From: Alphaproteobacteria bacterium 46_93_T64
GTDB taxonomy: Bacteria; Pseudomonadota; Alphaproteobacteria; Sneathiellales; Sneathiellaceae
Length of the DNA: 64,000 nucleotides
NCBI GenBank assembly: GCA_002163135.1
Contig: MAAN01000022.1
Span: 62,001-126,000, forward strand
Direction of reading: 5' to 3'
Shown: piece by piece, positions 2,506 through 61,650 of the stretch
Layout of the letters: each line of letters opens with the position of its first letter
Position numbering within the stretch: the stretch's first letter is position 1
Position numbers and translations under genes: made by a program
The notes under the pieces: generated by a model
The model's input: only the letters and a program-made list of their open reading frames with translations
What the model was told of the DNA's origin: nothing
Databases searched by the model: none

Positions 2506-4125
<1,620 letters not shown>

Positions 4126-4142
4126 GTAAGACGGAGTATTTT

Positions 4143-5060
4143 GTGCCTGACACAAGCATAATACAAAACAACACAGCTCGTGCCGAACAAGGTTCTGCAC
4201 GGGCTAGTGACTATTTTGCTCTGCTGAAGCCGCGGGTGATGTCACTTGTTGTCTTTACAGGACTGGTTGGAATGGCTGTTGCGCCTGGAAGCCTGCACCC
4301 TGTCTTGGCTTTTACGGCGTTGCTTTGTATTGCAGTGGGTGCGGGCGCTTCTGGCGCGATTAATATGTGGTATGATGCCGATATTGATCTGATCATGGAG
4401 CGGACTAAAAATCGCCCCGTGCCAGCCGGTAAAGTTACTGCAGGCGAAGCGCTAGGTATTGGTGTTTCTCTGTCAGTGGCGTCTGTCTTGTTGATGGGAC
4501 TTGCTATTAATCTGGTCGCGGCCTTTCTCTTGGCCCTTACTATTGGTTTCTACGTCTTTATTTATACGATGTGGCTGAAACGCCGGACACCACAGAATAT
4601 TGTTATTGGCGGTGCCGCAGGTGCGTTTCCTCCAATGATCGGTTGGGCTGCTGTTACAGGTGATGTCAGCATTGAAAGCCTTGTTCTTTTTGCCATTATA
4701 TTCTTCTGGACGCCGCCTCACTTTTGGGCGTTGTCTTTATGGCGGGATATCGATTATGCCAAAGCAGGCGTTCCGATGTTACCTGTTGTCGCAGGCCGCG
4801 AGGCAACGCGCCGTCAAGTAATGTTCTACAGTGTTCTATTATTTCCAATTGGCGTGTCACCGTATTTCCTTGGATATGCAGGACCAGTATTTGGAATTGG
4901 GGCGACGATACTTGGCGTAATTTTCCTGTTTGGTGCCGCGAAGGTATGGCTGAAAAAAGACGAGACAAGTGCAAAACAACTTTTTGCATTTTCAATTCTG
5001 TATCTCTTCTTGATTTTTGCCCTCCTTCTTGGAGAAGTAATTGTGAACGGAGTGGTTTAA
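4143..5060 (+). CDS. ctaB: Protoheme IX farnesyltransferase (heme O synthase)
   Basis: UbiA-family membrane prenyltransferase that adds a farnesyl chain to heme b, giving heme O, the precursor of the heme A used by CtaD. The 305-residue product is strongly hydrophobic with about nine predicted helices. It shows the first Asp-rich motif ([19 protein letters not shown]) and the conserved loop [11 protein letters not shown]. The start is GTG at 4143, 17 bases after the ctaD stop. The next gene, coxF-like, starts one base after its stop codon, so translation is probably coupled. Confidence 0.96.
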
Positions 5061-51080: not shown

Positions 51081-51695
51081 CACGGGCTCCAGAATATACG
51101 CAAATTTAGTCAATATTTGTGCAGAGAATAATTCGTTTATGTTGAACTAAATTGTAATGGTCCAAAATTGAACTGGTAGGCTTGACCCAAGAGAGTCGAT
51201 TAAATCCCATAGTCGGCTCATCTCTCAATAACGGACGTTTATATGTCCTGATTGGAGGTTATTCTTTGTTCCGTTTTGTGCCAAAATCAGACATGTCACA
51301 GTCGACGGGTCAAGAGCCACTCAGTTCCCCTACCCCCCTTAATCTCTGGAGCTCTGGAGCTCTGGAGCTCCTCGCTAACAAATTTGATCTGACAAAGGCC
51401 GGCCCAATGCCCTTTATCTGAAAAACCGCACTCTTTCAGATTAACCGAATGCTGAAGGCCGCGATGCGTTTGAAGTCGACTTTAGTATGCTGATGCCGAG
51501 GATATGTACGAAGCAGCCGCGCCTGACCTACACTAGGCTGCGCTCAGAATCCTCGCTTGCAGCTTCGCCGACTTCAATTTCGCCGCGGGTTCTATTGCGC
51601 TGATGGAGCCGAGCGGTTGGTCCCACAACGGCTCGGCAATTCCCTGTAAATAGCAAATCCAATTCTGCTGCGGTTATTGGCGCAATTCCGGATCG
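51081..51695. other. Gap with a short tandem repeat and an unexplained GC-rich patch
   Basis: No gene is supported. It holds three tandem CTCTGGAG units at 51344-51367, and at about 51440-51650 a patch richer in G and C than its surroundings that may be a remnant of a lost gene. I could not assign that remnant. Confidence 0.4.
51344..51367. repeat. Tandem octamer CTCTGGAG x3
   Basis: Three perfect head-to-tail copies of CTCTGGAG, with a further CTC. A possible site of slipped-strand length change; it is not inside a recognised gene. Confidence 0.8.
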
Positions 51696-53528
51696 CTAAA
51701 TTGCTTTAACACTACCAACAAATTGCTCCACTTCCTGGCGCAATATATTAAAACGTTCGCTTAACGTTTTTGAAGCCTCTAATACTTCACTGGACGCCGT
51801 ACCCGTCTGCTCCGATCCTGCCCGGACATTGACAATACTGTCGGAGACACTCTGTGTACCGGTGGCGGCTTCCTGAATATTGCGGCTGATCTCACTGGTT
51901 GCGGCCCCCTGTTCCTCAACGGCAGAGGCAATCATGGTAGCAATTTCATTCATCTCGGCAATGGTTTTTCGGATGCCCTCTACCGAGCTGACGGCATTTT
52001 GGGTTGCTCCCTGAATTGATCCGATTTGAGCGCTGATATCTTCTGTGGCCTTGGCTGTCTGACTAGCCAAATTCTTGACCTCAGAAGCGACGACGGCAAA
52101 ACCTTTGCCGGCATCCCCGGCTCGTGCGGCTTCAATGGTGGCATTCAGAGCCAGCAAATTGGTCTGTCCGGCGATATCGTTGATTAAATTGACCACATCT
52201 CCAATTTTCTGGGCCGCTTCAGCCAGCTCGCGGATGGTTTGACTGGTCCCGTCAGCCGTTTCAACAGCCTTGCCCGAAATATTCGTCGAATGAGAAACTT
52301 GCCGGCTAATTTCATTGATTGACGAGGTCAGTTCCTCAGTAGCACTAGCCACCGACTGCACACTGACCGTTGCTTCTTCGGCTGCTGAGGCCACGGTCTC
52401 ACTCTCCTCTTCGGTTTTCCTCGCAACCTCCGACATGGATTGGGCTGAGGATTCCATTTGAGTGGAACTCGCCGCAACGATGCCGAGAATTCCCTCGACG
52501 GTTTCGCTAAATCCCACAGTCATTCCGTTCAACTTTTCTTCGCGGGCCTGGCGTCTCGCCGCCGTTTCCGCGTCACGCTTGCGTTCACTTTCCAATTGAT
52601 CTTGTTCACGCTGCCGTTCGTCCAGTGCCCTCTGTTCGCGTCTGCGGGCAACCTCTCTCTCTTCTTCTTCAAGCCGTAGCTTCACAATGGCGTTTTGTTT
52701 AAAGATATCAAGGGAACTGGCCATTTGGCCAATTTCGTTGGACAAACCCAGTGACGGTATTTCTATGTCTATGGCGCCATTCGCCAATTCTTCCATGGCA
52801 TTATTCATCTCGCTTATACGTGTCGTCATTGTACGTGTTATGAGAAAACCAGCGATCGCGCTCAGCAGCACAGTGATACTGCCGGCGATAAGTAGCACAC
52901 TGATAGCCGCCCGCTCATCCGCCTCGGCCGTCATCAAAGCCGCTTCGGTGAAATGCTCGATATCCAGCAACGCATCCACAAGCTCTTTGTCGATTTGTTT
53001 CTCTTGATGTTCAACTTCTTCAGCAAGTTCCAAAGCCTGTTGCAATTCGCCTCTTTCGGCTAGATGCAGCGTTTTTTCTGCCAGCTCTTCATAAATCTTA
53101 TGTTCCGTATGGACCTTCTCCATGATAGCGAGGAGTGTCCGGAATTCAGTCTTATCCTTGTCGGTATGAGCGGTTTCGATCGCGTTCGTCAGGACCGCTT
53201 CGGCCTGTTTCAATTCGTCTTCAACCAGATGACCCAGTGTTGAAAATTCCTCCTCCAGCACCTTGAAATGAGCAAGGTTTGCTCGATCACCGGATAATCG
53301 CTGGCTCAGCGACATGGAACGTTCAAACAAAATAGCCTGTTCCAGTTGATGCAAAGTAACCGATGTGAATTTTTCGGTCAGCGGCATATCCCGTTCCGCA
53401 ATATCCTCGATTTCCACTCCGATCGCTTGCATTTTAAGAATACTAAACCCTGAAGTACCTATGAGTGCGGCAATCAACAAAACCACAAGTCCATAAATAC
53501 GTGTTGATATCTTTATGTTTTTCAACAT
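51696..53528 (-). CDS. Methyl-accepting chemotaxis protein
   Basis: Chemoreceptor of 610 residues: first membrane helix about 10-32, a helical periplasmic sensor (four-helix-bundle type, about 35-205), second helix about 207-231, a HAMP domain, a long coiled region rich in Glu and Arg (about 285-345), and the cytoplasmic signalling hairpin with [34 protein letters not shown]. No CheB/CheR-binding pentapeptide is seen at the end (FVGSVKAI). It lies alone in the island. The ATG is directly behind GAGGA with short spacing; a TTG one codon later would be better spaced. Confidence 0.95.
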
Positions 53529-54485
53529 TTCCTCACTCTTTCACTTAATAACGGGTACTTGACGAGCGGATCTACCAGCTGCAAAATTAATCAACAGGCG
53601 ACGTTTTGATCTCGGCTACAAACTCCGCCGCTGTGTCAATAGCAAGCGATTAAATGAACAACGCACGAACGATTTAATTCCTGGTCTTCACACGCTGAAT
53701 GTCTAACTCTTTAATTAGACTGACAAACTTCTGTTGCTATTTTCCTGCAACCCGAATTGGCTCTTATATGCTTTCCAAATGAATTGTATCAATTAGGTTA
53801 TTAATTTGGAGCTAATTATTAAAAACTAATATTTTAGGCGCGACTTATTAGGGTTGTTTCAGCAATCGACCGCGCTGTAGTTCCCTCCCAAGCGACAAGC
53901 TGCTGCTCGCCGATGCAGTTTCGAGAGCCGCTGAGCAGCCCGGCTATAGGGGTGAACCTTGGAGTTATGACGGAATGGCGGCATGGAATATCGGGGTTAC
54001 ATGGAATATAGGGGTTGGTATGTGGCATTTATTTTCCGCCTAGTGACGCATAAAAGTCCGTTCGGGGTCAACTTGAGAAGTCTTGACGGCCACTTATTTG
54101 TGTCCTCTCAGCCCCTTCAATCCGAACACTGTAAATGTATTTTCAAATTTCTCTGAAATATCTTCCGCTTAACGTGAAAATTCAGACTTAAACTCGGCGA
54201 TCTTAACGGGTCTCAAATGTGCCAAAAGGGGAAGCTCGAGATGCATATTTAGGAAAATGATTAAAGACTGCAAAGATGATCCGAATTACGAAAGAATTGC
54301 CACAATGCGTCCAGATACGGCCAAATCATCAATTTAGGGGCAGCAGCATGGCCGTAATTTAAACTCCTTCCATTTGCAGTGTGGTTTCACCATCTTAGCT
54401 TTCAATACTGATGCTATTAGAAAAATAATTGTTAATAGATAGTGGAGTATTATTAGGTACCAAATTTCTTATTGGAAATGCGCTT
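53529..54485. other. Gap before the hybrid kinase
   Basis: About 950 bases with no credible gene. It includes repeat copy 1 (54051-54231). A GC-richer part at 53840-54010 contains ATATTCC-like short repeats and may be remnant coding DNA that I cannot assign. Confidence 0.5.
54051..54231 (+). repeat. Dispersed intergenic repeat, copy 1
   Basis: First of four related stretches. Shared landmarks in order: AAAAGTCCGTTCGGGGTCA, CCCCTTCAAT-CCGAACA, TTTCTCTGAAATATCTTCCGCTT, TTCAGACTTAAACTCGGCGATCTTAA, GTGCCAAAAGG. Same orientation as the other copies. This is the most diverged of the first three. Confidence 0.7.
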
Positions 54486-56558
54486 ATGGACCAAGACTTG
54501 CGACACCTGGAGATATTGACGAAGGCAGAGCTAATTGCTGAAGTTCAGCGCCTGCGCGCATGTCACAGATTAACTGTCGAGCAAAACCCTAGTTCGCAGA
54601 GTGATTTTTCTGACGCAAACAAGGTGGATCGGTACGAAAATCTAGAAACAGAATTTAACGAGTTGATCGATGCTGTTGACAGTATGAACGCCGCGTTCAT
54701 TCTGTATGATGCCAATAACCGCTTTGTCCGCTGCAATTCTCTACACAAAATCTATTACCCGCACCTGAGCGATGTATACCTGCCAGGCACCCCGCGCAGC
54801 GTTGCATTGAGACGACACGCTGAACATTTGGCAGACCTCGCGCCGGAATTCGATATCGAAGCCTACTTAGCGAAACGTGACATATACCGGGGCATCCCAC
54901 GCCCTGATGAAGAACGTCAAATGACAAACGGGCGCTGGCTCTCTATTCGCGAACACTTGACATCGACCGGTGGTTTGGTAACCGTTCGCACCGATATTAC
55001 TGACCGAAAAAAAAGCGAAGCCAAGCAGCATGAAAGTGAAGAGCGTTTTCGAGCGTCATTTAAATCCAGTCACGGCATAGCAACAATTACAGATATTGAA
55101 ACGGGAACGTTTATTGATGTAAATGACGCATGGTTAACGCTTAGAGGTTTCGAGAAACATGAAGTAATCGGAAAGACAGCAGTTGAGCTAAATGTTTGGG
55201 GTTCAGAGGAGCGCCGAGAGGAAATTGTAAGCGAACTCAAACTTCGCGGAAGATTACTCAATTACGAAACACACGCCGTCACCAAGGCTGGAGAAATCCG
55301 CGAGACAATTATCAATGCCGAGGTGGTGAATATCCAAGGCAAGGAACTAATGTTTCTTTCTGGATCAGACGTAACCGAACGCAACCGATTTGAAAAACAA
55401 CTCCGCCGGTCGCAGAAAATGGAAGCTGTTGGCCAACTGACGGGTGGCATCGCTCATGATTTCAACAACATTCTTGGGATAGTTTTGGGTAATCTGGAAA
55501 TCATTCAAAGCTTACCACCGGGTGACAATAAAATTGCTGGTCGCATCGATGTCGCAAGAAAGGCAGTAGAACGTGGCGCTGATATCACCCACAAGCTTCT
55601 TGGATTTTCTCGGAAAGATCCACATGAAGTGCGGCTTGTGGACATAAATGGATCGGTCAACAATTTGCTGGATTTAGTCAGCAAATCTCTAACTGTCTCC
55701 ATTGATATAAAAACGTATCTTGCAGATGAATTATGGACCGTTGAAATCGACCCCGGAGATTTTGAAGACGCAATCCTTAATCTGGCGCTAAATGCGCGGG
55801 ATGCCATGCCAGATGGTGGCAAACTGACGATTGAAACTGCGAATATAGTATTTGATGAAGAATTTGTTGTGCATAATCCAAAAGCCTCAGCTGAAAGCTA
55901 TGCCCAGATCACTATCAGGGATACAGGGGCAGGAATGACCAATAAAGTAATAGACAGGGTTTTTGATCCTTTCTTTACTACAAAGGAAGTCGGAAAGGGA
56001 ACTGGGCTTGGGCTCAGTATGGTCTATGGTTTTGTTGAGCGGTCTGGTGGGTTCATAACTATTGATTCAGAAATAGGTAAGGGCTCAGCATTTCATCTGT
56101 TTATTCCCCGAACTATTGAAAATGCAACTGATCTGAACGATACAAAAATTACAACTGGCAAGCTACCTCTAGGTCATGAGAAAATATTGATTGTCGATGA
56201 TGAAGAGGGACTACGCGATATTGTGGCCATTAATCTTGGTGACCTAGGATATAACACGCTTGTGGCAGGAGATGGGCCAAGTGCTTTGAAGATACTCGAA
56301 CAAGAACGCGATATTGACCTTTTGTTTAGTGATGTCGTGATGCCAAAATTTATGAACGCTTATGAATTGGCTCAGAAGGCACATAAAAGACACCCACAAC
56401 TAAAGATATTGTTGACCAGTGGTTATGATGAAAATCTGGGCGAAATTGAAAATGATGACCCCTTCCTTATCAAGCTGAGAAAGACACAACTGAAAAAACC
56501 TTACGCCATCTCTGAGTTGGCTATCGCTATTCGCGAGGCGTTGGATGAGGAACTCTGA
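54486..56558 (+). CDS. PAS-containing hybrid sensor histidine kinase
   Basis: A 690-residue cytosolic hybrid kinase from ATG 54486 (an in-frame TTG at 54429 is less likely). A coiled start is followed by a PAS-like domain (about 45-175) with the PAC end TVRTDITDRKKSE, a second PAS (about 185-300) ending FLSGSDVTERNRFEKQL, the histidine H324 in GGIAHDFNNILG, the N-box NLALNARDAMPDGG, G-boxes DTGAGM and GKGTGLGLSM, and a C-terminal receiver with the phospho-acceptor D616 in LLFSDVVMP. There are no membrane helices. No cognate output gene is adjacent. Its stop codon leads straight into repeat copy 2. Confidence 0.94.
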   Translation: MDQDLRHLEILTKAELIAEVQRLRACHRLTVEQNPSSQSDFSDANKVDRYENLETEFNELIDAVDSMNAAFILYDANNRFVRCNSLHKIYYPHLSDVYLPGTPRSVALRRHAEHLADLAPEFDIEAYLAKRDIYRGIPRPDEERQMTNGRWLSIREHLTSTGGLVTVRTDITDRKKSEAKQHESEERFRASFKSSHGIATITDIETGTFIDVNDAWLTLRGFEKHEVIGKTAVELNVWGSEERREEIVSELKLRGRLLNYETHAVTKAGEIRETIINAEVVNIQGKELMFLSGSDVTERNRFEKQLRRSQKMEAVGQLTGGIAHDFNNILGIVLGNLEIIQSLPPGDNKIAGRIDVARKAVERGADITHKLLGFSRKDPHEVRLVDINGSVNNLLDLVSKSLTVSIDIKTYLADELWTVEIDPGDFEDAILNLALNARDAMPDGGKLTIETANIVFDEEFVVHNPKASAESYAQITIRDTGAGMTNKVIDRVFDPFFTTKEVGKGTGLGLSMVYGFVERSGGFITIDSEIGKGSAFHLFIPRTIENATDLNDTKITTGKLPLGHEKILIVDDEEGLRDIVAINLGDLGYNTLVAGDGPSALKILEQERDIDLLFSDVVMPKFMNAYELAQKAHKRHPQLKILLTSGYDENLGEIENDDPFLIKLRKTQLKKPYAISELAIAIREALDEEL

Positions 56559-56749
56559 TGTCCGCAATGGGTCATGAACGGTTGTTTTTACCGGTCTGAA
56601 AACACTTCCGCTTAGCCCCCTTATAACGGACATTGAAAATGAAATTTCAGATTTCTCAGAAATAACTTCCACTTTCAGTGCAGCTGCGGACATAAACTCG
56701 CCGGTCCTAAAAGGTCTGAAAAGTGCCAAAAGGCGACATGTCACGTGCA
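56559..56749 (+). repeat. Dispersed intergenic repeat, copy 2
   Basis: Starts at the first base after the kinase stop. Landmarks: TGTCCGCAATGGGTCA, GGTCTGAAAACACTTCCGCTTAGCCCCCTTATAACGGACAT, TTTCAGATTTCTCAGAAATAACTTCC, GCTGCGGACATAAACTCGCCGGTC, AAGTGCCAAAAGGCGACATGTCACG. It is the fullest copy. Confidence 0.8.
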
Positions 56750-56995
56750 ACGGTTTTTGATGCATTTAGGTTCCCTGTCTAATCTTGAAATTGAAAAAAA
56801 ACCTCGCCAACAAAATGAATATGGTCAATGAAATTTAACTATATATACATGAGTATTATTATGATCTAATGTTCATGTTCAAGGTATCCATGCGTTGTAA
56901 CGCAACGTTATTAATTTACCGAGATAGAATATCATTTTCCCGTTCTTTGCGGCTCATGATTTTAAGCGGACTAATCTGTAGGGGGGTTACAAAAA
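56750..56995. other. AT-rich leader of the VPLPA-CTERM gene
   Basis: No gene. AT-rich sequence likely to hold the promoter of the next gene, ending in an AGGGGGG ribosome-site-like run about ten bases before the ATG. Confidence 0.5.
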
Positions 56996-57540
56996 ATGAA
57001 CTTTGTTAGAAATCTTATTCTATCTCTTGTTTTCGGAGGTGTCGTTTCTTTAGCTGCCACCACAACACAAGCTGCTGATTTCAACTATCAGTTTACGGGC
57101 ACAGAAGGAACAGTATCAGGAACTATCACGCTCAGAGAAGTTAGAACAGGCTATTATACGGCAGAGCGTTTCACGATCAGAAGATACGAAAATCCAAACG
57201 GTACGATACGCACATTTACCATATTCATTGACATTCCCGATGTAGACGACCAAAATTTTATTTATAATACATTTAGAATGGAAGACGGAAAGATATCTTA
57301 CTATCGGTTATTTTCCAAATTCTTACATATGTTACCATTCACTGTGATTAATTGGAATTCGTACAGTAAAGTAGGTAATGAATTATCTCTTTTCTTCCCC
57401 CCCCCAAACAATAAGATATCCTATAGGGGAAACCTCACATTCTCACCATTATAGTCCCACTTCCTGCGGCCCTCCCGTTATACGGCGCGGGTCTCGCAGT
57501 CATGGGATTTATAGGCTGGCGTCGTAGTCGTAAAGCCTGA
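56996..57540 (+). pseudogene. VPLPA-CTERM surface protein, sorting signal out of frame
   Basis: An exported protein whose C-terminal sorting signal lies in another frame. The first frame (ATG 56996 to TAG 57454, 152 residues) has a signal peptide (about 1-26, ending TTTQA) and a strand-rich domain FNYQFTGTEGTVSGTITLREV. From 57454 the next frame reads VPLPAALPLYGAGLAVMGFIGWRRSRKA to TGA at 57540: a VPLPA-CTERM signal with its motif, hydrophobic segment and basic tail. The shift must be within 57427-57453, because the second frame has TAG at 57424. A C9 run at 57397-57405 is a further unstable place. Without the signal the protein would be released rather than sorted by an exosortase-type system. 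Confidence 0.82.
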
Positions 57541-57660
57541 GGGACATGAACAGGGGAATTCTCCAAGTTCCCCAATAAGCCAGCTATACAAACGTCTGAC
57601 ATACTGCTCAAGCGCAAAGGGGGTTAATTCCCTTTCTCGCTTTTACGTTCCAAATAGTGA

Positions 57661-57856
57661 CATAAAAAGGTCCGTTCAGGGTCATAAGCAGACTTTTTTC
57701 TTAGCCAAAATCACTTCTGCTCTGCCCCTTCATAGCGGACATTTGCATTCTGAAATTGGATTTCTCAGAAATAGCTTCCGCTTTCCGCACAGTTGCGGAC
57801 ATAAACTCACCGATCTAAAATAGTCTCCATAGTGCCAAAAAGAGACATGTCACGGG
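57661..57856 (+). repeat. Dispersed intergenic repeat, copy 3
   Basis: Landmarks: AAAAAGGTCCGTTCAGGGTCAT, CTGCCCCTTCATAGCGGACAT, TTTCTCAGAAATAGCTTCCGCTTTCCG, AGTTGCGGACATAAACTCACCGATC, TAGTGCCAAAAAGAGACATGTCACG. Its end is almost identical to that of copy 2. Confidence 0.8.
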
Positions 57857-58041
57857 CAATGATTTAAGAGCCAATCTGGTCCCATACTGGCTTGAATAAC
57901 TGGATTAGGAAAATGGCACCCAGGGCCTCTCATCAGAAGCAACAATACGCCCTATTAACAACAGTATTTTCAGTGAAACCAGTCATATTGATGTCAAACG
58001 ATTTTCAGCCCTTCAATCCGTGTAAATTTCATAAAAATGAG

Positions 58042-58070
58042 AAAACGGGCAGCATAATGCTACCCGTTTT
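58042..58070. terminator. Terminator-like hairpin
   Basis: ACGGGCAGCA-TAA-TGCTACCCGT with one internal mismatch, with AAAA before and TTTT after, so it could act in both directions. No gene is clearly assigned to it. Confidence 0.6.
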
Positions 58071-58349
58071 CAATCCAAGGAAACTTCTGCCAGTTACGTA
58101 GACAGGAACGCCGGACAGTTGTTTCCAATAAGAGGCCAGGGAACGGACCTCCTTTACCCGGATCAAGGCTTTCACTGAGCGGCATCAAACTTGATGTCAA
58201 AACAAGTATTTATTCAATCAAGTACAACTCTTATTGCCACTTAAAACACGTTCAATTACTGGCGTGAACATAGCAAAGTTGCTATATATAAACGCAAATT
58301 TTATCGGATATACTGTCAATAAAATTTTTCGTATTTTTTTGATTTATAG

Positions 58350-58535
58350 GAGATAAATGACAAAATAAATGAGCGATTACATGAGCTTTCCCTGAGTGTC
58401 GAGCAAACCATCGACCAGAATGAATTATGGGAAATTTTAAAATCCAATCTTTCTTCATTTAGCATGCAGTGGGCCAATTATGCATTCGGACTGCTGGACG
58501 ATCTTATCTTCATGTCTAATATGTCGGAAGAGTGA
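58350..58535 (+). pseudogene. LuxR autoinducer-domain-like fragment
   Basis: An open frame of 61 codons (58350 to TGA 58535) reading INDKINERLHELSLSVEQ, then DQNELWEILKSNLSSF and MQWANYAFGLLDDL. It resembles the N-terminal helices of the LuxR-type protein encoded just downstream on the other strand (FNQKLISANSQADIWRLFKNH). An AGGAG site and ATG at 58347-58359 stand in front, but in the neighbouring frame, which stops after three codons. It looks like the frameshifted, truncated start of a second LuxR-type gene. Similarity is by eye only. Confidence 0.5.
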
Positions 58536-58671
58536 TTGGAGACAAAATGGTCCTTCAGGTCTCGACAATTAATCAGCACTTTCAAAATGCAATGTGGCGT
58601 CTTAACGCAAGGGTCCGAAAGCATGCTATTGTAGTTGCCATGAGCAAACGCCAATTGTTCCTATCAAAAAG

Positions 58672-59439
58672 TCAAAGAACCAACTGCCCGGTAGTTAGCG
58701 CTTTTGCAAGCGCTTGTTCCCGTGTTTTTGCATTGAGGCGCAGTTTTGCTTTCTGGATATGCAAATTCACTGTAGCATTTTTCAAATTCATTTTTTCCGC
58801 TATTCGATCAGGTCGCAGCCCCGCAGACAGATAACGCAATACGTCTTTCTCACGGTCTGTAAGCAGATGTTTTTTATTAAAAAGCAATCCATTCGATGAT
58901 TGAAAAAACTCGTCATTTGTCTTGATCTCAAATCGGGCCATGGCTTGATTTACCATATGGAAAACGATATTCAAACTAACCCCGTGCTGGGTATAAAGAT
59001 CATGTACTTCCGCATCTGTTGTATTAAAAAATGCTGCACCGGCAGCCAGCGTGCTCCTAGAGGACGTTGGCAACGGCGTATAAAATCCGCAGCTTGAACC
59101 GAAATCTTTTAAATCTTCAAGCGCTTGCTGATTAATTGTATCTAGTCCTGTCCTGCCAATCCGAGTTTGACTATCAAATATTATCGTGTCCACACTGGAA
59201 ATGCAGTGTTGTGTAACAAAATCAGTTGGAGCATATTTCTTTGCGTGAAGCGCACGCCAATCGTTGTTCATCGTCGAAAAATACGCAAGCTGGCCCGGCA
59301 CACCATTAACGTAATTGAGGCCCGTTATGCTGTAGTAAAGCATGTGGTTTTTAAAAAGACGCCAAATATCCGCCTGTGAATTAGCAGATATTAGTTTTTG
59401 GTTAAAGGCTCGTACTCTATTGTCTTTATCGGAAAACAT
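58672..59439 (-). CDS. LuxR family regulator with autoinducer-binding-like domain (solo)
   Basis: A 255-residue transcription regulator from ATG 59439, behind GAGGG. The N-terminal domain (about 1-175) has the layout of acyl-homoserine-lactone receptors, with NNDWRALHAKKYAPTDFV in the ligand region, but several positions usually conserved there are changed. The C-terminal LuxR HTH (about 190-250) is clear: LLTDREKDVLRYLSAGLRPDRIAEKMNLKNATVNLHIQKAKLRL. No luxI-type synthase lies in the window, so it would be a solo. Ligand unknown. Confidence 0.88.
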   Translation of the reverse strand: MFSDKDNRVRAFNQKLISANSQADIWRLFKNHMLYYSITGLNYVNGVPGQLAYFSTMNNDWRALHAKKYAPTDFVTQHCISSVDTIIFDSQTRIGRTGLDTINQQALEDLKDFGSSCGFYTPLPTSSRSTLAAGAAFFNTTDAEVHDLYTQHGVSLNIVFHMVNQAMARFEIKTNDEFFQSSNGLLFNKKHLLTDREKDVLRYLSAGLRPDRIAEKMNLKNATVNLHIQKAKLRLNAKTREQALAKALTTGQLVL

Positions 59440-60361
59440 TATGCCCTCAACCTGTAAGCTTAGAAAAAGCACGTCACATTATTTTACATCAAACTAAATA
59501 TTGTAATTTGTATTCTATCCAAAGGTAGAGGTTTGGTTTATGTCCTAGTTTTAGGCAGCATAAGATAATGTTTGTATATAAACAATTTTAAGTAATATCT
59601 ATATGTATTTACAAAAAAATTAGGTCTGTATTTGAACCTAATATACCAACCAGATAACAAGCCTCTAGTTTTCTAGATAACTAATAGCTTCTCATAATAT
59701 CGTTTTTCATATTCTACTGCGTTGTCGTGACAATTTCCTTCGCGGCTCAAGCTAGCTTCCAAGTTATTATCTATAAGGAATTTACGCCAGCCCGGGCATT
59801 TATACTGAACGTATTGACCGGAATGTATCAACACTTTCGCTTCTGGTTTCCGCCTTCAGAATGCCATCTGCAAGGCATCGATAACAAAGTCAGCCCGTGG
59901 ATTACTTTTCATGCTCCAACCGACAGTATTGTGAGAGAACAGAGCCAAGACAATCACTAGATGCAGCCACCCCTTATAAATTCAAATAAATGTGAAATCT
60001 GTGACCGAGGCTCGATTAAGGCGATTGATCTTAAATTGGCGTGCCAGTGTTTTGGAACAGGAACCGCCATTTACAGTCAGCTTGTATTTGAAATCCACTA
60101 TGTTGAACGAAGCCAATCTATTGAACTGTTATACAAACGCTTCCTACTGACCGGGCGCCAGAATAACAAAGAGAAAAGTCCGCAGTGGGTCACTAGCGGC
60201 TGTTTTCAACAGTCTGAAAACACTTCCGTTATACCCCCTTACAACAAACATCAGATTTTGAATTTTCAGATTTCTCTAAAATAACTTCCGCTTACAGTGA
60301 CGAAACAGACATAAATTCGTCGATCATGCCCTTACAGTGCGCTAGCCTATTTGATTTTTGT
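59440..60361. other. AT-rich gap with repeat copy 4
   Basis: About 900 bases between the LuxR-type gene and a small gene. The 59440-59700 part is very AT-rich and probably carries the luxR promoter. Two small plus-strand ORFs (59727-59960 and 59961-60284) have no recognisable content and the second runs into the repeat, so I do not call them. Confidence 0.5.
60175..60343 (+). repeat. Dispersed intergenic repeat, copy 4
   Basis: Landmarks: AAAAGTCCGCAGTGGGTCACTAGCGGCTGTTTTC, CAGTCTGAAAACACTTCCGTTATACCCCCTTACAACAAACAT, TTTTCAGATTTCTCTAAAATAACTTCCGCTTACAGTG, CAGACATAAATTCGTCGATCATG. The last block (GTGCCAAAAGG) is lost. Same orientation as the other copies; the convergent 44-residue gene begins just after it. 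Confidence 0.75.
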
Positions 60362-60496
60362 CTAGTTCGCTTTCTTACCGGAGATAACAACGCCCGCTTT
60401 TCCAGCGCCTGAGTTTGCCGTTGCGGAGACCTTTGGTTTCTCCTTCTTGGGTTTTTTAGCTTCTTTATTACCTTTAGAATTATTACCTTTGGCCAT
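60362..60496 (-). CDS. Small basic protein of unknown function (44 residues)
   Basis: A 44-residue ORF from ATG 60496, with AAGGA six bases upstream, to TAG 60362. The product starts MAKGNNSKGNKEAKKPKKEK and ends AGVVISGKKAN: lysine-rich, probably disordered. I recognise the MAKG-N-S-K-GNKEAKKPKK pattern from short hypothetical proteins common in alpha- and other proteobacteria, whose role is unknown. Good ribosome site and typical composition make it a likely real gene. Confidence 0.75.
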   Translation of the reverse strand: MAKGNNSKGNKEAKKPKKEKPKVSATANSGAGKAGVVISGKKAN

Positions 60497-60913
60497 TGTC
60501 TATCCTTTTTAATAAAATCCGATTTCCACAATACCTGACTCCTTTCACAAAACCCACTACTTCCGCTCTGGGTCAAATTCAGACCTGCGACACGGCTTAA
60601 TTGGGTGGTCCGCTTTGCCTTCAACAACCGACCCTCTTTAAGTTTTAATTCGTTAAGTAGCTTTGCGTCAAATTAGACGACTGTCGTTAATCGTAGCGTA
60701 TCAATGCGCGCTGGATTTATTGCAAGTACATACTAAAAAACTGAATACACCAAAGGGGCCCAAATTTTTCCTTCATTTACTCGGGGTACCACGGTCACTT
60801 TGCATAGCCCCCTAGTTTTTTTATTCGGCCTGATGGAATATCTAATACTGTTCGTCCGGCACTATTCAGAAAATGATTGCTCAGTCATTTCGCCAAGGAC
60901 AACTTCGATTCCG

Positions 60914-60947
60914 AACTGATAATATAATTCTTATTTTATTATCAGTT
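60914..60947. promoter_or_regulatory. Palindrome A upstream of the short recombinase
   Basis: AACTGATAATA at 60914-60924 and its exact inverse TATTATCAGTT at 60937-60947, with a 12-base spacer. The same half-site recurs in palindrome B. Possible operator or recombination core. Confidence 0.6.
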
Positions 60948-60995
60948 GTTGTTTTCTGCGGCTTACAAGAAAGAAAACGGTTGAGGTTATTTCCT

Positions 60996-61036
60996 ACTGA
61001 TAATAAATATATGAAATCGAATGTTTTATTATCAGT
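60996..61036. promoter_or_regulatory. Palindrome B abutting the short recombinase
   Basis: ACTGATAATAAA at 60996-61007 and TTTATTATCAGT at 61025-61036, a perfect 12-base inverse with a 17-base spacer. Its right arm ends four bases before the GGAG ribosome site of the recombinase gene, so it lies in the probable mRNA leader. Confidence 0.6.
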
Positions 61037-61050
61037 TATTGGAGAAAATC

Positions 61051-61650
61051 ATGGCGCTGGGCAAACAAGCGAAGGTTTTAACGGACAAACAGTGCCGTAT
61101 TGTACTGAGGCACTTGGAAGAGTCCCGTTATCCAGTCAGAGACAAGGTTATGTTCCTTTTGTCTATTAAAGCCGGATTGCGGGCTAAAGAAATAGCCTCG
61201 ATTACTTGGGCGATGGTTACCGATGCTAACGGTAATGTCTCTGACCATATTGCTCTTCCCAATACGGCCAGTAAGGGAAAGGGCGGCGGCCGGACCATTC
61301 CCTTGAACTCTGATTTAAAATCAGCTTTGATCGATCATCAATCGCGGTTGGGCGACAAGGCTGTCCCACAAGCACATATCATTCACTCAGAACGCGAGAA
61401 GATCAAAGGTATGGCTGTGGGGTCAATAACGGTCTGGTTCCATCGGCTGTACGCCGGTATGGGCTTTGACGGCTGCTCCAGCCATAGCGGACGCAGGACC
61501 TTCATTACGAAAGCCGCCCATAAGATTACAGAGGCTGGTGGATCTCTTCGGGATATCCAGCAGCTTGCCGGGCATTCTGATCTATCTACAACCCAACGTT
61601 ATATCGAGGGAAGCAGTCAGGCAAAAGTTAAAGTCGTTGATTTGATTTAG
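61051..61650 (+). CDS. Short tyrosine recombinase (catalytic domain only)
   Basis: A 199-residue tyrosine recombinase made up almost entirely of the catalytic domain, the size of FimB/FimE-type invertases. ATG 61051 has GGAG seven bases upstream. Catalytic residues are complete: R44 in AGLRAKEIA, Lys in NTASKGKGGG (75/77), H145-x-x-R148 in SSHSGRRTF, H175 in LAGHSDL and the nucleophile Y184 in TTQRYIEG. There is no N-terminal arm or core-binding domain. It has its own leader with two matching palindromes. Enzymes of this form either invert short DNA pieces or serve mobile elements; the target is not known here. Confidence 0.9.
   Translation: MALGKQAKVLTDKQCRIVLRHLEESRYPVRDKVMFLLSIKAGLRAKEIASITWAMVTDANGNVSDHIALPNTASKGKGGGRTIPLNSDLKSALIDHQSRLGDKAVPQAHIIHSEREKIKGMAVGSITVWFHRLYAGMGFDGCSSHSGRRTFITKAAHKITEAGGSLRDIQQLAGHSDLSTTQRYIEGSSQAKVKVVDLI

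Follow-up and report, generated by a model that had tools for sequence, protein, structure and literature searches.

The window analysed here is a stretch of 64,000 nucleotides (G000:C11:62001-126000) from a 4.0-Mb genome in 41 contigs, whose genus is taken by inference to be Sneathiella. Four repeat copies lie in it on the plus strand, separated by the genes for a PAS/histidine kinase/receiver protein, a small protein and a LuxR-type regulator. A sequence-only reading had described them as four same-strand repeats with ordered landmarks and this was borne out: the copies were alignable over approximately 180 bp with a mean column identity of 70%, blastn of a copy against the window recovered the others (E = 3e-30 for the best pair, about 1e-3 for the weakest pairs), and the landmarks were found in the copies in the order described. 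As that reading also had it, the copies contain no recognisable coding content and copy 2 sets in at the kinase gene's stop codon. Each copy consists of a series of worn palindromes of 24–28 bp with the pattern GTCCGCT-N10/11-AGCGGAC, here designated H1, H2, Hx and H3, and we consider it rather probable that the repeats are the recombination sites of a gene-cassette array, most like Acinetobacter pdif modules or integron attC sites and matching neither. The features at the locus are as follows:

54054..54232, plus strand: copy 1, composite repeat H1-H2-Hx-H3, worn (alignment, profile)
56558..56739, plus strand: copy 2, closest to the family consensus (top profile score in the family)
56560..56583, plus strand: end site H1 of copy 2 (GTCCGC..GGGTCA..), in which the junction with genome G007 falls
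56606..56633, plus strand: site H2 of copy 2 (TTCCGCTTAGCCCCC..CGGACAT), starting 46 bp past the H1 start
56667..56693, plus strand: extra site Hx of copy 2, starting 61 bp past the H2 start
56714..56739, plus strand: end site H3 of copy 2 (GTCTG..GTGCCA..GCGACAT), starting 47 bp past the Hx start
57668..57848, plus strand: copy 3 (alignment, profile)
60176..60338, plus strand: copy 4, most of H3 gone (alignment, profile)
60561..60633, plus strand: fragment of flank and H1 site, the flank and left half common to contig C32 of G007
51211..51329, plus strand: weak tail fragment (E 0.05 and 6e-5)
54429..56558, plus strand: gene between copies 1 and 2, PAS/histidine kinase/receiver protein
56996..57454, plus strand: gene between copies 2 and 3, without family match
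58672..59472, minus strand: gene between copies 3 and 4, LuxR-type regulator

The first-pass search of the window with the four-copy profile returned the four copies only; the weak fragment at 51211-51329 nevertheless amends the earlier remark that no other copy was noticed in the first 54 kb, and the second fragment lies beyond the copies. Copy 4 is situated mostly inside an open reading frame (ORF) of 107 aa (59961-60284), itself without family match. Arm mismatches are present in all four copies and copy 4 has lost part of H3; the window copies are degenerate and probably no longer active.

The centres of the palindromes are typed (GGGTCA in H1, CCCCC in H2, GTGCCA or TAGCCA in H3) and their spacing is mostly ~46 bp. 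Alignment of 28 extended copies gave constant ends, (A)TGTCCG..GGGTCA and GTGCCA.AAGCGGACAT, with two subfamilies differing in the middle part, and the ends form imperfect terminal inverted repeats (ATGTCCGC..GG at the head, ..GCGGACAT at the tail) as in miniature inverted-repeat transposable elements (MITEs). An IMG/VR contig carries a clean relative (L139:6719-6837) that has three sites with starts 45–46 bp apart: ATGTCCGCTTT-GGGTCA-TTAGCGGACAT, whose left arm has one mismatch, ATGTCCGCTTT-GCCCCC-AAAAGCGGACAT and ATGTCCGCTTT-GTGCCA-AAAGCGGACAT. Such clean cores, with inverted arms round a short centre, read 11-6-11 and are thus dif-like: sites of 28 bp, with 11-bp inverted arms on either side of a 6-bp centre, were found in the clean sequences L139, L217 and L444; wear has left this plan only partly visible in the window copies. 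When the arms were searched for in 40 contigs with a free gap of 4–20 bp, 113 matches had a gap of 10, 44 a gap of 11 and 32 all other gaps together, against 1–3 matches per gap in the shuffled control. The ~46-bp spacing and the H1/H2/H3 centres also occur in unrelated genera, where the spacing is kept and, as seen by eye, the spacer sequences are not. Yet another centre type was seen on a Pantoea agglomerans plasmid (L451:46058-46085), in AGTGTCCGCTTT-ATGTTA-AAAGCGGACACT with perfect 12-bp arms. The genome of the window also contains a subfamily of H1 units (G000:C41:77435-77522, C41:111351-111434, C24:101211-101295 and C7:212259-212354) with a common downstream sequence, 78–90% identical over about 200–300 bp in three units and limited to about 40 bp at C41:77435.

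The sequence-only reading considered the repeat tied to its island. Matches in the same genome and in genus mates show that it is not island-specific: a sequence-only family model built from 21 copies matched at 32 places in the own genome, spread over contigs C1, C7, C11, C19, C24, C33, C34, C36, C38 and C41, and was found in 13 of the 24 genus genomes, the own one included. Four loci duplicating the window were removed from the family profile sets; many of the compared genomes are fragmented and the ORF sets were predicted mechanically. A DNA search with copy 2 had matches in 10 of 95 genomes, namely the own genome, eight genus mates and one genome outside the genus with a 29-bp match, so at the sensitivity of this query the full-length repeat looks genus-restricted. 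The core GTCCGCTTTGGGTCATNAGCGGAC, with two mismatches at most, was present in 14 of 385 alphaproteobacterial genomes (zero for the reversed control in the rows listed) and a related pattern in 7 of 299 genomes across the phylum, mostly as a single match each. A motif scan of genome contigs gave seven stretches, and the profile found the repeat in both of the two on which it was run (L052 and L056).

Clean versions of the sites were found in unrelated alphaproteobacteria and on plasmids of Pantoea, Klebsiella and Vibrio. The three-site form is present on a plasmid of Bradyrhizobium sp. Ash2021, and a two-site form with the centres TTCGCTCA and GTGCCA, starting ~40–42 bp apart, on plasmids of Pantoea, Duffyella, Klebsiella and Vibrio. 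Among 72,556 plasmid records queried with L139, 67 matched, including 43 from Pantoea. Single sites were also encountered: E. coli ATCC 25922 has a lone clean GTGCCA-type site (L219:1500-1527), intergenic and within an apparent prophage region, a single-site GTGCCA match occurs in 147 of 5,426 E. coli genomes, at one place each, and 3 of 50,697 phage records matched with single sites only. The motif TTTCTCNNAAATANCTTCCGCTT had no match in the viral contigs scanned; a 14-mer gave at least 120 stretches there, probably mostly by chance, one of which is L139 with its clean H1-H2-H3.

Comparison of flanks within the genus gave pairs of elements with only one side in common. The 3' end of the window's kinase gene is 96.8% identical in G007, which then runs into a different element subfamily; the elements at C38:52793 and C33:312327 are 93–98% alike downstream and not upstream; and the fragment at 60561-60633 has its flank and H1 left half as in G007 and diverges, as read by eye, right past the centre. 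The clearest case is a block of 3,433 bp, 99.97% identical between genomes G003 and G015 and 99.88% between G003 and G023, outside of which G003 is unrelated to both; the block ends inside H1 and H3, at ATGTCTTTCAT|GGGCGG and GGGCCG|AATGCAGAC. In a test not seeded from junctions, which left aside alignments shorter than 200 bp or within elements and ends near sequence edges, 16 of 199 alignment ends fell, in both aligned sequences, at an element or a site, against 0.08 expected from coverage, a value that ignores relatedness. A likelihood walk on 14 pairs picked from the flank comparison placed seven ends in H1 or H3 or at their edges.

Similar behaviour was observed on plasmids of Enterobacterales. 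A 6.5-kb region of Pantoea agglomerans with seven sites, compared with all plasmids, matched 108 records, and the ends were counted in 59 of the 107 other records, the self row being excluded. Among the matches listed, 25 rows were from Enterobacterales, and 42 of their 50 ends were inside sites, which make up 3.6% of the query. Five cases were read at base level, and their ends were at or near site centres, as in GTCTGCTGTTCGCT|CATAGCGGAC, where the other partner is unrelated past the bar. A cassette encoding DUF4440 and GrpB proteins occupies four different contexts, among them a plasmid of Klebsiella pneumoniae (95.8%).

The sites are arranged in arrays and avoid genes: 28 of 136 were inside ORFs at a coding fraction of 0.83, and in the own genome 2 of 34 elements at a coding fraction of 0.87. 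On contigs of genome G315 sites alternate with ORFs, one closely fitting ORF per interval; on L375, for example, the sites at 2149, 2901, 3865 and 4288 enclose ORFs 2256-2855, 2944-3798 and 3917-4273. Neighbouring units were co-directional in 67 of 82 cases (own, genus, G031, G040, G315 and G082 sets). A 49-kb stretch of Pantoea contained 15 sites against none in the shuffled sequence, and all 11 that could be oriented were on the plus strand, as were all five orientable sites in a 50-kb stretch of another Pantoea plasmid. Replication-strand bias was rejected as the cause of the uniform orientation, the GC skew of the contigs agreeing with it in about six clusters and disagreeing in about five. 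In the own genome the flanking genes were co- and anti-oriented with the element in a ratio of 17:17 on either side, and in other alphaproteobacteria the upstream gene was co-oriented with the unit more often (52 to 25).

The architecture, the spacing, the mostly uniform orientation and the ending of shared blocks in end sites, the last in several independent cases, are observed, and they are the basis on which we propose the following mechanism. A composite site consists of two to four palindromic cores of 24–28 bp and would join cassettes into mostly co-directional arrays; each core has conserved inverted arms, GTCCGCT and AGCGGAC, extending up to ATGTCCGCTTT and AAAGCGGACAT, round a short type-specific centre. 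Like centres of end sites would exchange, so that whatever lies outside is swapped, and cassettes, single or grouped, would move among loci, replicons and species with the centres staying put. The exchange would be made by a site-specific recombinase, probably of the tyrosine type; the core sites of tyrosine recombinases have inverted arms at fixed spacing and a shared centre in which the exchange takes place. The window copies are most readily understood as remnants of an old array, worn junctions set between the hybrid kinase, the orphan small gene and the LuxR-type regulator.

By analogy, the system is most like the XerCD-dependent pdif/dif module islands of Acinetobacter, the closest working likeness: gene modules stand in a row, the sites read 11-6-11 and near-identical modules occur across replicons. 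The arms ATGTCCGCTTT/AAAGCGGACAT appear unlike those of dif and, in a further difference from pdif, the sites here are clustered two to four to a composite, have type-specific centres and mostly point one way. The Acinetobacter islands are described as modules in a row with 28-bp sites between them, each site having a 6-bp centre flanked by inverted arms of 11 bp, and with modules common to different replicons at >99% identity (PMC12907356). With integron cassettes and attC the arrays share co-directional small genes and a long imperfect palindrome per unit, often after a stop codon. No integron integrase stood beside the arrays at the loci examined, though integron arrays without an integrase are known, and the genes in the own genome, in contrast to integrons, point both ways; canonical attC was rejected, since RYYYAAC/GTTRRRY boxes were found in 0 of 81 units (shuffled mean 0.1) and in none of the four window copies. 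Repetitive extragenic palindromes (REP/REPIN) with their REP-associated tyrosine transposases (RAYT) are likewise multicopy short intergenic palindromes, but the transposase family PF01797 is absent from the own genome and none of eight PF01797 loci in related or site-bearing genomes was near a site; with no site-flanked Y1 transposase at any PF01797 locus examined, this candidate was rejected too. The res sites of Tn3-type elements resemble the sites here in having three palindromic subsites within ~115–120 bp, while here the exchange ends in the first and the last subsite alike and the resolvase PF00239 is often absent: it was found in 7 of 13 site-bearing genomes and not in G040, G315, G082, G392, G022 and G023, several of which are incomplete, and Tn3-type res therefore fails as a general explanation.

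Several results weigh against the cassette interpretation. No circle or exchange was observed. Away from sites were 183 of the 199 alignment ends, many of them at tandem repeats or distant paralogues; the likelihood walk left five of its 14 pairs with ends elsewhere or unresolved and two not anchorable; 15 of the 82 adjacent units were opposed; and none of the 68 ends in the 34 non-Enterobacterales rows among the plasmid matches listed was at a site. As many of the plasmid rows come from plasmids related to one another, the independent events come down to a handful. As for the enzyme, no site was found in the flanks of 25 tyrosine-recombinase/integrase loci (out of 61 matches, six genomes). 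The 209-aa recombinase of the window (61021-61650, plus strand), XerC/D-like and with a catalytic domain only, was rejected as the partner because it occurs in 1 of 24 genus genomes. Inverted repeats on CTGATAATA/TATTATCAG just upstream of its gene (60914-61041) are perhaps its own putative binding sites. A XerD-like gene was present in all six genomes compared and a XerC-like one in five (the second gene of G040 was compared in part), and no other group was as widely shared.

The repeats might instead be MITEs, maybe composite, on whose inverted ends GGGTCATNAGCGGACAT / TGGCTATNAGCGGACAT a transposase would act that has been lost or has its gene elsewhere, with the shared blocks as composite transposons. 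The dispersed copies with inverted ends, and the shared block bounded by the H1 of one copy and the H3 of the next, would agree with this, but inspection by eye of three sets of compared junctions revealed no direct target duplication and no clean empty site was found, the arms beyond the ends belong to the palindromic site as well, the orientation in arrays is mostly uniform, gene segments between elements are shared without the elements (C7 and contig C2 of G006), and the other genera keep the spacing and not the spacer sequence. At the end palindromes relatives retain one flank and differ in the other, which favours a cassette junction over a plain MITE, and we regard the MITE explanation as unlikely. 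Passive rearrangement, in which fragile palindromes or short homologies are joined by general repair or homologous recombination with no dedicated enzyme, appears similarly improbable. It would suit the surveys of integrases, resolvases and the 209-aa integrase, which yielded no enzyme, and hairpin-forming DNA is prone to breakage; fragility alone, however, does not explain why Alpha- and Gammaproteobacteria should both keep typed centres, a fixed spacing and a direction, and the resolved pairs end at the outer sites, not across the body.

The sequence-only reading took the repeat for an old non-autonomous element or a spreading regulatory or RNA unit. Its first part fits copies that have diverged and lie dispersed between genes, with no dedicated enzyme found for them; the island-bound option is wrong and the regulatory or RNA option is not supported. 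A structured RNA or regulatory element spread through intergenic regions would account for the position of the copies, and a column-shuffle test on 15 copies gave z scores near -7 on one strand and -6 on the other, which is of little help to it since any palindromic DNA would give such values. With zero pairs from RNAalifold on 21 copies, and hence no covarying fold, no Rfam match up to E = 1 over 53000-61500, and an orientation independent of the flanking genes in the own genome, this explanation is very improbable and was rejected.

Three further observations concern the surroundings. In the region 57398-57538, nine consecutive C stand close to the end of ORF 56996-57454, and the frame just past the stop codon encodes, as seen by eye, an apparent tail of the VPLPA/PEP-CTERM kind; given the C run and this tail, the gene may be frameshifted or phase-variable. 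A strong inverted repeat with a loop of 1 nt, GAAAACGGGCAGCAT/ATGCTACCCGTTTTC, lies at 58041-58071 and is terminator-like. Elsewhere in the genome, G000:C7:271932-276018 consists of tandem repeats of about 288 bp, probably a gene for a repeat-domain protein.

Searches of mainly open-access literature found no paper on these sites; text matches to the motif strings were primers or, by their titles, seemingly unrelated papers (e.g., a loop-mediated isothermal amplification primer, PMC4713083). Judged from that literature, the system is in our view not previously described. We put forward tentatively, as a serious possibility, that it represents a third class of cassettes beside integrons and pdif modules, with composite GTCCGCT-N10-AGCGGAC cores and typed centres, which would shuffle accessory genes in Alpha- and Gammaproteobacteria by a putative recombinase, the Sneathiella repeats being fossil arrays. 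The direct question raised is which recombinase acts on a non-dif 11-6-11 site. If the proposal is true, accessory genes such as regulators, oxidoreductases and GNAT/DUF1778 pairs are moved by an unannotated cassette system, both from plasmid to plasmid in clinical and plant-associated Enterobacterales and within marine alphaproteobacteria, and, as the sites are easy to spot by pattern, the content of the cassettes and their transfer would be mappable at once.

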